Source of the DNA: an uncultured Clostridia bacterium
GTDB lineage: Bacteria; Bacillota; Clostridia; Christensenellales; UBA1242
Direction: 5' to 3'
Assembly: GCA_944381215.1 (NCBI GenBank)
Contig: CALWKF010000005.1
Location: 1-64,000, forward strand
DNA: 64,000 nt
Positions 25,073 to 30,436 of this stretch are shown in pieces. The notes beneath the pieces were generated by a model. That model saw nothing but the letters and a program-made list of their open reading frames with translations, did not search any database and was not told the origin of the DNA. A program made the translations under genes and the position numbers. The stretch's first letter is position 1; each line of letters opens with the position of its first letter.

Positions 25073-25101
25073 TTGAAAAGAATTAGCAAATTGTGTATAA
25101 T
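25073..25101 (+). promoter_or_regulatory. Sigma-A type promoter of the ABC/PucR pair
   Basis: TTGAAA (25073-25078), 17 bases, TATAAT (25096-25101), then AAGGAG and ATG at 25122. Confidence 0.6.
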
Positions 25102-25121: not shown

Positions 25122-25796
25122 ATGGCTGAATTTGTAATTGAATTAAAAGACATTAAACTGGCGTATAATAAAGATTATTGCGCGCTATTTGATATTAATT
25201 TAACGCTAAAAAAAGGCGACAGGCTGGCAATCATAGGCGAAACTGGTAGCGGAAAAACCGCACTGCTTAGACTCATCGCGGGCCTGGAAAAACAAAAGAG
25301 TGGCGAGTGCCTAATCGAAGGCGTGCCCGTTAGTAAAGTGAATTTTGCGAAGGACATCAGCCTTGGTTATTTGTCTACAAAGGCCGTGTTTTTTGAGCGT
25401 AAAAGTGTCTATAAAAATCTGCTTTGGGCGTTGAAAGTGCACAAGGTCGTCGCATCCGAGCGCGAGGAACGTATTAACACTATTTTAAAGGAATACGACA
25501 TCGAGTCGCTAGAAAAAGAGAAAATTAAAAATTTGTGTAGCAGTGATAGACGTCTTGTCCAAATTGCGCGCATGGCCCTTAGGCCTCTTGACATAATTTT
25601 GTGCGACGATGTGTTGAGTGAGTATGATAACGACACGGTCGCTCGTATAAAAAAGGCGTTAGGGCAGTTGTTTGACAGTGCGCCAAAAGATAAAGTTATC
25701 ATTATGGCGAGTCAAGAAAAGGAAACTTGCGCTGATTTTGTCAAGGAGTTTAAGTATTTAAAATCAGGAAGTTTTGTGGAGAAATTAGATGAATAG
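25122..25796 (+). CDS. Degenerate ABC-type ATPase
   Basis: 224 residues with the ABC nucleotide-binding fold. Walker A is intact (GETGSGKTALLR, about 38-49). Other catalytic sites have drifted: the LSGGQ signature reads LCSSDRR (about 143-149), Walker B ends LCDDVLS instead of DEP, and the H-loop reads MASQEKE without histidine. It may bind but hydrolyse nucleotide poorly, acting as a sensor rather than a pump. No permease gene is adjacent; the next gene, a PucR-type HTH protein, overlaps by 8 bases. Confidence 0.75.
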   Translation: MAEFVIELKDIKLAYNKDYCALFDINLTLKKGDRLAIIGETGSGKTALLRLIAGLEKQKSGECLIEGVPVSKVNFAKDISLGYLSTKAVFFERKSVYKNLLWALKVHKVVASEREERINTILKEYDIESLEKEKIKNLCSSDRRLVQIARMALRPLDIILCDDVLSEYDNDTVARIKKALGQLFDSAPKDKVIIMASQEKETCADFVKEFKYLKSGSFVEKLDE

Positions 25797-26175
25797 AGAT
25801 TATTCAAAAAAGATTGCTATTAACTCGTCTTTGCTTGGAAACCTGCTCGTAAATCTTGACGATGAAAGTCTCGGGAATGTTGAAAATATGCTCGAGGATG
25901 AAAATGTTCAAAAGTTTTTTAAGGATGAGGAACTAACAATTACCGCGGACCTTTTTTTCAAAAATAATTTGAATATCATAAAGACTGCGGAGGAGGCAAT
26001 CATTCATCGCAACACGCTTGTGTACAGGCTCGAAAAAATAAAAAAAATGCTAGGCCTAGATATCCGCAACTTTGAAGACGCAGTTACCCTACATGTGCTA
26101 CTTACCCTAAAACGATTGGAGCAAAAACGAAAAAGGCGCACAAACAAATTGTCGCGTCTGCAATCTTTAAACTAA
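25789..26175 (+). CDS. PucR/CdaR-type helix-turn-helix protein, short form
   Basis: 128 residues. The C-terminal ~70 residues match the HTH that closes PucR/CdaR regulators: LFFKNNLNIIKTAEEAIIHRNTLVYRLEKIKKMLG. The usual GGDEF-like or PucR sensory domain is missing; only ~45 residues precede the HTH. Together with the overlapping pseudo-ATPase gene it may form a two-protein regulator, with the ATPase as sensor (inference). The basic tail (KRLEQKRKRRTNK) would suit DNA contact. Confidence 0.8.
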   Translation: MNRDYSKKIAINSSLLGNLLVNLDDESLGNVENMLEDENVQKFFKDEELTITADLFFKNNLNIIKTAEEAIIHRNTLVYRLEKIKKMLGLDIRNFEDAVTLHVLLTLKRLEQKRKRRTNKLSRLQSLN

Positions 26176-26196
26176 GGGAGCCTCGGGCTCTTTTTT
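26176..26196 (+). terminator. Rho-independent terminator
   Basis: GAGCC-TCG-GGCTC followed by TTTTTT, directly after the stop of the PucR-type gene. Confidence 0.92.
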
Positions 26197-26434
26197 ATTT
26201 TTTAAATTAAAGTATACACAATACTATAAAAAATAAAAGTAATAATTATATAAATAAATTAAAGTATAAAGCATTAAATTAATAGTATAAATGATATTAT
26301 AAATTAAATTATAATAGTTAATTAAAAATTACATATAATAAATAAAAATATAAACTAAATCATATATTATTTATAATAAAATAAGTTATTTAGATTGATA
26401 AATATTATATAAAAAGAATGTTTAAAGTTTGAAA

Positions 26435-26929
26435 TTATTTAACTTTATTCAGTTTTAAAATCTCTGATTCTTGATTTTTGGCAACTTCAACTTGTGGGGG
26501 TGCTGGGGTTGATTTTTTAAATAATGGCAACAAAACCTTTAAAATCTCTAAAAAATTAGCATTTTTATTCAAATTTTGAGTACTATGCACATTATTTTCA
26601 TATTGCATAGTACTTTGCATAGTACCTGAATTTGCGAATAATTGGTTGTTGGTTTTCGGCTGATTGTTTGTAAAATTTTTTGATTGAGGAAAGGTGTTGT
26701 TTAAATTTTGGTGCTGAGAGTCATGGGTAGATTGTGTATTTTGAGTTTGTGGGAAATTATATGTAGGTAATGACCAGTATGGGTTTTGATAATCGGGTGC
26801 GGTTTGCGTGTCAAAATTTGAGGGCTTGGGTTTACTAAATGTATTAGAAATTAAATTTAATATGCCCTCGATATTTTCAATACCAATGTTGTTTAAAAGA
26901 TTTAAAATATAAACTTGTATATCAACACG
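26435..26929 (-). CDS. Open reading frame without a standard start codon (possible gene or remnant)
   Basis: Reading leftwards from 26929 the frame stays open for 165 codons to a stop at 26435. The first ATG is only at 26620. The N-terminal part reads IQVYILNLLNNIGIENIEGI and then NLISNTFSKPKP, an amphipathic helix pattern. It is followed by a Gln/Asn/Thr/Pro-rich low-complexity region, and the C-terminus has FLEILKVLLPLFKKSTPAPP. No in-frame GTG, TTG or ATG lies at the expected start and no ribosome site is obvious. It is divergent from the 26978 gene. It may use a rare start codon or be decayed. AT-rich DNA with no gene fills 26197-26434. Confidence 0.35.
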   Translation of the reverse strand, partial: RVDIQVYILNLLNNIGIENIEGILNLISNTFSKPKPSNFDTQTAPDYQNPYWSLPTYNFPQTQNTQSTHDSQHQNLNNTFPQSKNFTNNQPKTNNQLFANSGTMQSTMQYENNVHSTQNLNKNANFLEILKVLLPLFKKSTPAPPQVEVAKNQESEILKLNKVK

Positions 26930-28524: not shown

Positions 28525-28918
28525 TTTTGCTTGTATTTTTCAAAAACGTGCAAAAAATTATCACTTTTACACATTTTTAACACCTTTCCATTTAATTTTG
28601 AAAAAAATTTTTCAGTTTTTAATGATTTTGTGAAATTCATAAAATATTTTCATAATGTTAATTTTAGTCGAGATTGGTGCTCGGCTTTTTTTATTTATTT
28701 TTGCATTAACTATGCTCTGTGGTCTTATACCCTTTGTATTATTAAAGTTATCCTTTTTATTTATATAAAATAGGTTGGTAGCCTTATGCAAAATATTTAA
28801 AATCCCGCATGGCTTAGATTTGATAATTTTTAACAAAATCAGTGTTGATTCTCTAAAATATAGCAATTTTTTTATTCAATTTTATTGTAGAATTAGATTG
28901 TCTAGGAGGAAAGTGCTT
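28525..28918. other. AT-rich gap before spoIIA
   Basis: About 390 bases with no convincing gene. An 80-codon frame at 28531-28773 has low-complexity Phe/Ile/Asn content and no ribosome site. GTAGAATTA (28887-28895) resembles a sigma-H -10 (RNNGAATWW), as expected ahead of spoIIAA, but I see no matching AGGA-type -35. Confidence 0.4.
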
Positions 28919-29227
28919 ATGCAAGTTAATGCAAAAGTTTATATGGACACTCTGTATTTATCTATCGCTGGCGAGTTGGATGAACATACCGCACACTATG
29001 CTCGAAGTGCTATGGACAATCAACTCGACTCAGCAGAATTCAAGCAAGTCATTATAGATTTATCAAAGCTTGATTTTATGGACAGCACGGGGATTGGAGT
29101 TTTGATTGGTAGGTATAAAAAACTCAAACAACGAAATACGCCTGTGTTCATCTCCAATCCAAGTGCGCAAGCAGATAAGATATTTAAAATGACTGCACTC
29201 TATGATGTGATGCCCAAAATTAATTAA
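28919..29227 (+). CDS. spoIIAA: Anti-sigma F factor antagonist SpoIIAA
   Basis: 102 residues from the ATG at 28919 after TAGGAGG. STAS-domain protein with the phosphorylated serine in DFMDSTGIGVLIGR (about 54-67). Unphosphorylated SpoIIAA frees sigma-F from SpoIIAB in the forespore. First gene of the spoIIA operon; length is normal. Confidence 0.95.
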   Translation: MQVNAKVYMDTLYLSIAGELDEHTAHYARSAMDNQLDSAEFKQVIIDLSKLDFMDSTGIGVLIGRYKKLKQRNTPVFISNPSAQADKIFKMTALYDVMPKIN

Positions 29228-29259
29228 AGGAGTTAACAAAATATTCAAAGGGAGTAATT

Positions 29260-29721
29260 ATGAATTATATTAATGAAATGACACTGCAATTCGATTCGCA
29301 CTCGATAAACGAAGGGTTTGCTCGTAGTGCGGTGGCGGCATTTTGCGTGCAACTTAACCCAACACTTGATGAAATTACCGACATAAAAACCGCTGTGAGC
29401 GAGGCTGTAACCAACTGTGTCGTCCACGCTTACCCAAAATCGAAGGGTAAAATTACTGTGTGGGTGGGCCTTAAAAAAACTCGCGAAATTGATATAAAAG
29501 TAATCGATAATGGAGTAGGAATTGCTGACTTACAGCGCGCACGCGAGCCCTTTTTTACGACGAAACCTGATGAAGAGCGTGCGGGTATGGGGTTTACCGT
29601 AATGGAAAGTTTTATGGACACGGTAAATCTCGAGCGTAACGAAAATGGCGGTATAGTGGTTGAGATGTCTAAATCATTAGGTCGGCGCAAGGCTATGGCC
29701 GTAGGTGGTGAAAATGATTGA
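29260..29721 (+). CDS. spoIIAB: Anti-sigma F factor/serine kinase SpoIIAB
   Basis: 153 residues. GHKL ATPase-kinase: N box in AVSEAVTNCVVHAYP (about 46-60), G1 box in VIDNGVGI (about 82-89), G2-type ERAGMGFTVM (about 108-117). It binds and holds sigma-F and phosphorylates SpoIIAA. Ribosome site AGGGAG; overlaps sigF by 8 bases. Confidence 0.95.
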   Translation: MNYINEMTLQFDSHSINEGFARSAVAAFCVQLNPTLDEITDIKTAVSEAVTNCVVHAYPKSKGKITVWVGLKKTREIDIKVIDNGVGIADLQRAREPFFTTKPDEERAGMGFTVMESFMDTVNLERNENGGIVVEMSKSLGRRKAMAVGGEND

Positions 29722-30436
29722 TTATGCGCAAACGCTTCGACTAATCAAGTTAGCGCAAGACGGCGACCAGGATGCCAAAGATATGTTAATAAATGAACAT
29801 TATCCGCTGGTCAAAAGTGTGATTCGCCGTTATCGAAACAAGGGCATTGATTACGATGACCTTTTTCAACTTGGTTGCGTCGGCTTTGTGAAAGCAATTA
29901 ATAATTTCGACACCTCATACAATGTCCGCTTTAGCACTTATGCCGTGCCTATGATTGCGGGTGAGGTAAAGCGTTTTTTGCGCGATGATGGTTACATCAA
30001 GGTCAGTCGCGCCATCAAGTCCCAGGCTATAGAAATTAATCGGTATTTAGACAGCCTTCCCGCCGATAGCCCCGCACCCAGTATTACGGACATCGCGGAA
30101 AAATTTAATTTGGAACCGCAAGAAGTCGTGTTTGCGATGGACAGTACTCGTTATCCAGTAAGTTTGTCGACCCCAGTTGATAGTAACGAAGAGGGAAGTG
30201 TAACCCTAGGTGAGCGTATAGCAACGCAGGAAGAGGAAGATTCAAAACTCGATCACTTCATACTAAAACAATTAATTGAATCACTATCTCCACGCGACAG
30301 AAAAATTATAATTATGCGTTATTATCGAGACAAAACACAGAGCGAAATCGCCAAAGAATTAGGTGTTAGTCAAGTCCAAGTATCCAGAATCGAAAATAAA
30401 GTTTTACAAAATATGCGCAAAAAGTTTGGAGAATAA
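29714..30436 (+). CDS. sigF: RNA polymerase sigma-F factor (early forespore)
   Basis: 240 residues from the ATG at 29714, which has GGTGGTG at good spacing within the end of spoIIAB. Region 2 contains YDDLFQLGCVGFVKAINNFD and FSTYAVPMIAGEVKRFLRDD; region 3 follows; region 4 has the HTH QSEIAKELGVSQVQVSRIE. Sigma-F versus the closely similar sigma-G is settled by the spoIIA operon context. An spoVA gene does not follow. Confidence 0.95.
   Translation: MIDYAQTLRLIKLAQDGDQDAKDMLINEHYPLVKSVIRRYRNKGIDYDDLFQLGCVGFVKAINNFDTSYNVRFSTYAVPMIAGEVKRFLRDDGYIKVSRAIKSQAIEINRYLDSLPADSPAPSITDIAEKFNLEPQEVVFAMDSTRYPVSLSTPVDSNEEGSVTLGERIATQEEEDSKLDHFILKQLIESLSPRDRKIIIMRYYRDKTQSEIAKELGVSQVQVSRIENKVLQNMRKKFGE

Follow-up and report, generated by a model that had tools for sequence, protein, structure and literature searches.

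A degenerate ABC ATPase, likely derived from UgpC, and a sensor-less HTH_30 protein encoded together in genome-reduced Clostridia: probably a small gene switch

What does an ABC ATPase do once it has lost the residues that serve hydrolysis, while its gene overlaps that of a small DNA-binding protein? This question is raised by two genes in the window, i.e., the whole 64,000-nucleotide stretch of DNA analyzed here (contig CALWKF010000005.1, positions 1 to 64,000, assembly GCA_944381215.1), which comes from an uncultured Clostridia bacterium (Christensenellales; UBA1242). An earlier note, made from the letters alone, had described an overlapping pair at 25122-26175 composed of an ABC-type ATPase devoid of several catalytic motifs and an HTH protein devoid of its sensory domain, and had proposed that the two proteins work together, with nucleotide binding as the input signal. 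Both reading frames were recovered as described, on the same strand and sharing 8 bp (25789-25796); the coordinates of all features are collected in Table 1. By eye, a Shine-Dalgarno-like run precedes both the ABC and the HTH starts. The promoter-like hexamers of the window reappear upstream of the ABC gene in other members of the genus; no common inverted repeat that could serve as an operator for the HTH protein was recognized upstream of the ABC genes. Past the terminator-like stem, the window is strongly A+T-rich (26200-26800), and in many loci of the family the ABC and HTH genes are followed by a gene of ~100-190 aa on the opposite strand. Further downstream (28775-30436), the window contains genes that read by eye as SpoIIAA, SpoIIAB and SigF, a locus for a sporulation sigma factor; the source genome is reduced, at 1.22 Mb.

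Table 1. Coordinates of the features of the ABC-HTH locus in the window
Feature	Position	Strand	Description
Promoter-like site TTGAAA-17-TATAAT	25073..25101	+	11/12 consensus matches; consensus match only, not proof
ABC gene	25122..25796	+	224 aa; degenerate MalK/UgpC-type ABC NBD
Walker A GETGSGKT	25236..25259	+	Residues 39-46; intact, direct reading
Signature region LCSSD instead of LSGGQ	25533..25547	+	Residues 138-142; lost
Walker B IILCDD	25593..25610	+	Residues 158-163; Asp kept, catalytic Glu replaced by Asp
HTH gene	25789..26175	+	128 aa; sensor-less HTH_30 (PucR/CdaR-type) DNA-binding protein
Terminator-like stem, then T run	26174..26194	+	3' of the HTH gene; candidate only

The window ABC matches the Pfam family ABC_tran with 82 bits (cut-off 25), and its AF2 model has a complete NBD fold, with a mean pLDDT of 93.3. 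A fold search returned NBDs of the PDB at Z about 25; it was discarded as a test of origin, because MalK, GlcV, FtsE, LolD and others tie at this value. The motifs were compared with a reference set of 7 UgpC and 4 FtsE proteins, in which each scored position is canonical in 11/11 sequences. This comparison bore out the reading that Walker A is intact, whereas the signature, the Walker B Glu and the H-loop are lost: the window ABC has CDD where the reference Walker B reads DEP, and Ser instead of His in the H-loop. It also carries a further loss that the earlier note did not mention, namely Thr instead of Gln in the Q-loop. We then counted the same positions in 85 distinct ABC orthologues of the window's family, setting gapped positions aside. 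The Walker A Lys is present in 70/84 orthologues (lost in 14/84), the adjoining Ser/Thr in 81/84 and the Walker B Asp in 81/85; the catalytic Glu is found in 9/85, the Q-loop Gln in 3/85, the signature Gly-Gly in 0/85 and the H-loop His in 1/83. It should be noted that one protein (L067, whose upstream gene reads by eye as an asparaginase) was excluded from these motif counts and from the UgpC/FtsE score counts given below, and was present in the first ABC alignment and HMM, and that a heavily eroded protein of 178 aa (L092) was retained in the ABC counts. In genera g7, g12 and others, the P-loop itself has eroded away. In ABC proteins, the residues retained here bind nucleotide and Mg, and those that are gone serve hydrolysis and coupling. 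The motif pattern supports a window ABC that is catalytically dead with its P-loop retained; such a fold may still bind ATP and would be unable to drive transport.

The window ABC also appears short. Pfam detects the NBD alone, with no C-terminal OB_MalK/TOBE domain, and this domain was likewise not detected in 10 longer ABC orthologues. The C-terminal regulatory domain of MsmX begins at residue 236 (PMC7658222), and the window ABC ends at residue 224, about where the C-terminal domain of MsmX/MalK would start. A candidate remnant of the MalK C-terminus in long orthologues (307-387 aa) was rejected: the end-of-profile match scored 16.6, a value equalled by 1/50 column shuffles.

The HTH protein contains PF13556 (HTH_30) at residues 52-106, with 62 bits (cut-off 27), and no other Pfam family above cut-off; its AF2 model has a mean pLDDT of 87.2. 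It is the sole HTH_30 match in the source genome, and its profile matches the C-terminus of CdaR-like regulators of ~360 aa (E 2.7e-36). The N-terminal sensory part, i.e., GGDEF_2 or diacid recognition, is absent, in agreement with the earlier reading of the sequence.

The ABC is present in 9/9 genomes of the window's genus. Using a cut-off of at least 131 bits, which is our own choice (large multi-domain ABC proteins score at most 122), we found ABC orthologues in 100 of 147 genomes and 29 of 42 genera of the family, with 47/147 genomes below this score. The HTH, with the window protein as a query, was found in 80/147 genomes and 25/42 genera. When the two lists were crossed, 57 family genomes had both, 43 had the ABC with no HTH match, and 23 had the HTH with no ABC above 131 bits; in many of these 23 genomes, longer and more eroded ABCs adjoin the HTH. 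Between genomes G000 and G008, dN is 0.045 for the ABC and 0.112 for the HTH, with dS near or beyond saturation. Since dN is far below a nearly saturated dS, both genes are under purifying selection.

Conservation of the pair across genomes, which the earlier note had proposed as a check, was observed in many genera, yet is incomplete: the HTH gene follows the ABC gene in 60/85 distinct orthologues and is missing beside the other 25/85. Among the 25 lone ABCs, two (L177 and L216) are truncated at the end of their contigs, and two of the 60 pairs (L050 and L076) still stand on the lone side in the pair/lone split of the motif counts. In 58 measured pairs, for which the longest-frame starts were used, 30 overlap, 15 are separated by 0-25 nt and 13 are further apart; thus, 45/58 are overlapping or spaced by no more than 25 nt. 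A six-frame search found no HTH within 1.5 kb of the lone ABCs, and a whole-genome profile search found no HTH match in four lone-ABC genera (g12, g14, g20 and g35). Lone HTHs are also found. For example, one locus (L072) has an HTH with no adjoining ABC gene, and in genus g56 of family f15, short HTH_30 proteins (113-138 aa) with no ABC upstream are encoded in 6/6 loci. These sensor-less genes (L250-L255) are followed by a gene of 428-454 aa, whose product in L125 resembles an S41 peptidase on reading. No ABC-HTH fusion was seen among the loci read. A mirror-tree comparison of the ABC and the HTH at 19 loci, in which the S8 protease gene served as a control, yielded a partial r of 0.055, which was reached by 598/2000 permutations. 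The existence of lone ABCs and lone HTHs, the sensor loss in f15 and the null mirror-tree result speak against an obligate two-part machine. The proposal that the two proteins work together is partly supported, by the operon-like layout and the tight spacing; the 25/85 unpaired orthologues, the lack of correlated evolution and the cases in which the P-loop Lys is lost do not fit a fixed pair. Nucleotide binding may plausibly be the input signal of the pair.

In genomes outside the family, this HTH forms the C-terminal end of a longer regulator (~310-380 aa, in most cases close to 360 aa); GGDEF_2 was found in 2/3 such regulators scanned, and one also had a diacid-recognition match below its cut-off. 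A UgpC/MsmX-type ATPase is encoded upstream of this regulator, in the same orientation and no more than two genes away, in 18/49 distinct genomes outside the family, a ratio that is not a frequency, because the loci were picked by score; in one further case (L119/L227), UgpC is divergent to the regulator. The regulator-linked UgpCs measure 371-417 aa in the cases where the gene was retrieved in full, and the two that were scanned contain OB_MalK and TOBE_2. FtsE is encoded directly downstream of the regulator in 17/48 distinct genomes. All these synteny counts are lower bounds, because our simple gene caller overlooked some genes, among them the UgpC of G165. In other Clostridia (L132-L157 and L231-L234), ftsE and an ftsX-like gene often come directly after the CdaR-like regulator, which yields the order ugpC-regulator-ftsE-ftsX; a literature search found no paper on PucR with FtsEX in Clostridia.

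The window ABC occupies the UgpC position relative to the regulator. Its profile has a modest preference for UgpC (254.9, E 1.5e-37) versus FtsE (230.1, E 1.6e-35), and UgpC scores above FtsE in 58/85 orthologues. Among the 28 best matches of the ABC profile listed outside the family, 20 lie in frames of 355-453 aa, the length of MalK, and these include the regulator-linked UgpCs of G165 and G266. Degenerate MalKs that kept the P-loop and lost the signature, Q and H residues are represented by the best outside match, which lies in family f25, and two relatives; the UgpC model gives them 80-161 bits versus 56-64 for the FtsE model, and they look like intermediates. At their loci (L271, L273 and L274), these MalK-like ATPases of 304-354 aa are encoded upstream of an importer-type operon. 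In L271 (2648-6391), the MalK-like gene is followed by genes that read as a TM1266-like regulator, an NMT1-like SBP, a permease and a canonical ATPase; the gene lengths in L273 and L274 are similar. The earlier note had named an ATPase found beside a permease in related genomes as a finding that would refute its model; this arrangement was encountered only for these distant degenerate MalKs, whose genes precede an NMT1-type importer equipped with an ATPase of its own. In family f9, another degenerate ABC of 224 aa (L272:5219-5893) comes right after a cytidylate-kinase-like gene; the stretch that was retrieved contains no HTH gene. In a phylogenetic tree, 22/22 sampled pseudo-ABCs form one clade (SH-aLRT 99), which is not placed beside UgpC; branches are long, and the nearest kin is not resolved in this tree. 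FtsE was considered as a source of the ABC and rejected, because it lies downstream of the regulator but the window ABC lies upstream, and because UgpC is the better match in the majority of orthologues. The synteny, the bridging f25 sequences and the profile scores favor descent of the window ABC from UgpC, which is likely, although not proven.

The family has few of the importers that an ATPase of this type would serve. SBP_bac_1, the customary sugar-binding protein, was found in 14/147 family genomes versus 103/115 genomes of the order outside the family (103/121 less six family members with no match), and no SBP_bac_1 match was found in the source genome, which is 94% complete. The single BPD_transp_1 permease of the source genome belongs to an NMT1-like operon that also encodes a canonical ATPase. 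Within the family, a permease of this type, the one that was sought, is present in 118/147 genomes, and 21 of the 29 genomes with none keep the ABC orthologue (a count obtained by crossing two genome lists, with nine of the 29 genomes identified by elimination). Because of these 21 genomes, a role of the ABC in type I import is unlikely.

We tentatively favor, at somewhat less than an even chance, a scenario in which, by analogy with MalK and MalT, a former transport ATPase became the partner of a transcription factor, probably one that binds nucleotide without hydrolysing it. In E. coli, MalK drives transport and, when idle, also binds and restrains the activator MalT (PMC10427625); MsmX-type ATPases are common to several sugar importers (PMC7658222). 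The starting point would have been a Clostridia module, with a gene for a multitask ATPase of the UgpC/MsmX (MalK) type upstream of a CdaR/PucR-like regulator. As CUT1-type sugar importers were largely lost in this genome-reduced family, the ATPase would have shed its C-terminal regulatory domain and all hydrolysis and coupling elements, retaining the fold, the P-loop and the Walker B Asp, and the regulator would have shed its N-terminal sensing part, leaving a bare DNA-binding protein. The present ATPase would bind nucleotide without turnover and act by binding, i.e., it might hold, stabilize or release the neighboring HTH protein, much in the way that MalK of E. coli retains MalT when it is idle; in lineages with no HTH gene, the ABC would need another target. 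Since the nucleotide site is selectively retained in an operon with the HTH gene while the importers are gone, a nucleotide-binding controller of the HTH protein would be the simplest function. We observed the two genes, their motif losses, the synteny, the loss of sugar SBPs and the selection on both genes, and we infer that the ABC descends from UgpC, binds nucleotide, contacts the HTH protein and has a regulatory output; the pair is probably a small gene switch now, not a pump.

Several alternatives have to be weighed against this gene-switch scenario. The ABC could have a separate job in the cell, e.g., as a scaffold or as a regulator of another protein, with the two genes together only through their ancestral neighborhood. 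This would explain the 25 orthologues with no HTH beside them, the four genera with no HTH match anywhere in the genome, the degenerate ABC/MalK proteins of f9 and f25 that have no nearby HTH gene, and the absence of a mirror-tree signal; on the other hand, the overlapping or tight arrangement of 45/58 pairs and the promoter- and terminator-like signals that flank the window pair favor joint synthesis. We regard a separate job as doubtful, albeit a serious contender. A different alternative goes further than our scenario, of which it is a special case, and represents the strong form of the model in the earlier note: the ABC replaces the sensory domain of the regulator in trans, and ATP/ADP is the signal. 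The loss of the sensor and the presence of a P-loop protein within one operon, along with the retention of nucleotide-binding residues alone, are in line with such a replacement. However, f15 g56 lost the sensor with no ABC upstream, there is no sign of ABC-HTH co-evolution, and the P-loop Lys is lost even in 5/57 paired orthologues; in lineages whose P-loop is gone, the signal is unlikely to be nucleotide. This special case is thus unlikely, and the corresponding general claim, that throughout the lineage a non-hydrolysing ABC took over in trans the sensing of a sensor-less CdaR-type regulator, so that the ATP/ADP state or another P-loop ligand would set expression, seems rather unlikely as well.

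Both proteins could also be remnants that no longer have a function and are in the process of being lost, as suggested by the heavy erosion in some genera (with the P-loop lost in g7, g12 and others), by independent losses, and by the 47/147 genomes below the orthologue score. Decay of this kind is hard to reconcile with a dN of 0.045 at near-saturated dS, with orthologues in 29/42 genera, with the selective retention of Walker A and B, and with the confident and complete fold predicted by AF2, and we consider it improbable. Least credible to us is that the ABC is still a transport subunit, for example, the degenerate half of a heterodimeric NBD pair whose permease is encoded elsewhere. The source genome does retain one NMT1/Ssu-type importer, and the degenerate MalK of f25 is upstream of an NMT1-type layout in 3/3 loci. 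Nevertheless, that importer of the source genome has its own canonical ATPase, the ABC persists in most family genomes with no BPD_transp_1 match (21/29), and the Q-loop Gln is retained in only 3/85 orthologues, which makes a transport subunit highly improbable.

The gene-switch scenario can be placed among known systems. With UgpC/MsmX/MalK, the CUT1 multitask ATPases, the window ABC shares the NBD fold, the sequence and, as seen for UgpC in other Clostridia, the location upstream of a CdaR-like regulator; it differs in the absence of the C-terminal OB/TOBE part, the signature, the Q-loop Gln, the catalytic Glu and the H-loop His, and in a source genome that has no SBP_bac_1 protein. The window HTH shares the C-terminal HTH_30 and the same conserved core with the CdaR/PucR-family regulators (PF13556 with PF17853), but has 128 aa versus about 360 and lacks the GGDEF_2 or diacid-recognition part. 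In the MalK-MalT system of E. coli (PMC10427625), an importer ATPase controls a transcription factor by binding, which is proposed for the window pair by analogy; there, MalK serves as a working subunit of the pump and MalT is a large STAND protein, whereas the window has a dead ATPase, a bare HTH and a genome in which no sugar importer was found. The degenerate MalK/ABC proteins of f25 and f9 share the loss of catalytic motifs and the kept P-loop with the window ABC, but no HTH gene adjoins them, and those of f25 are longer (304-354 aa) and located beside an NMT1-type importer layout. Our searches of the open-licence literature turned up no publication that describes a degenerate, orphan MalK together with an HTH of the PucR/CdaR type. 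The parts are known, their combination is new in that literature, and its history can be traced.

If this scenario is true, the family would show, in a natural example that can be traced, how a transport ATPase of the ABC type left transport while its nucleotide site was kept; intact ancestors, intermediate forms and subsequent losses are all there to compare. A path by which MalK-type regulation gave rise to a regulator that stands alone could then be tested, and the pair may represent a regulator of gut Clostridia with very reduced genomes.
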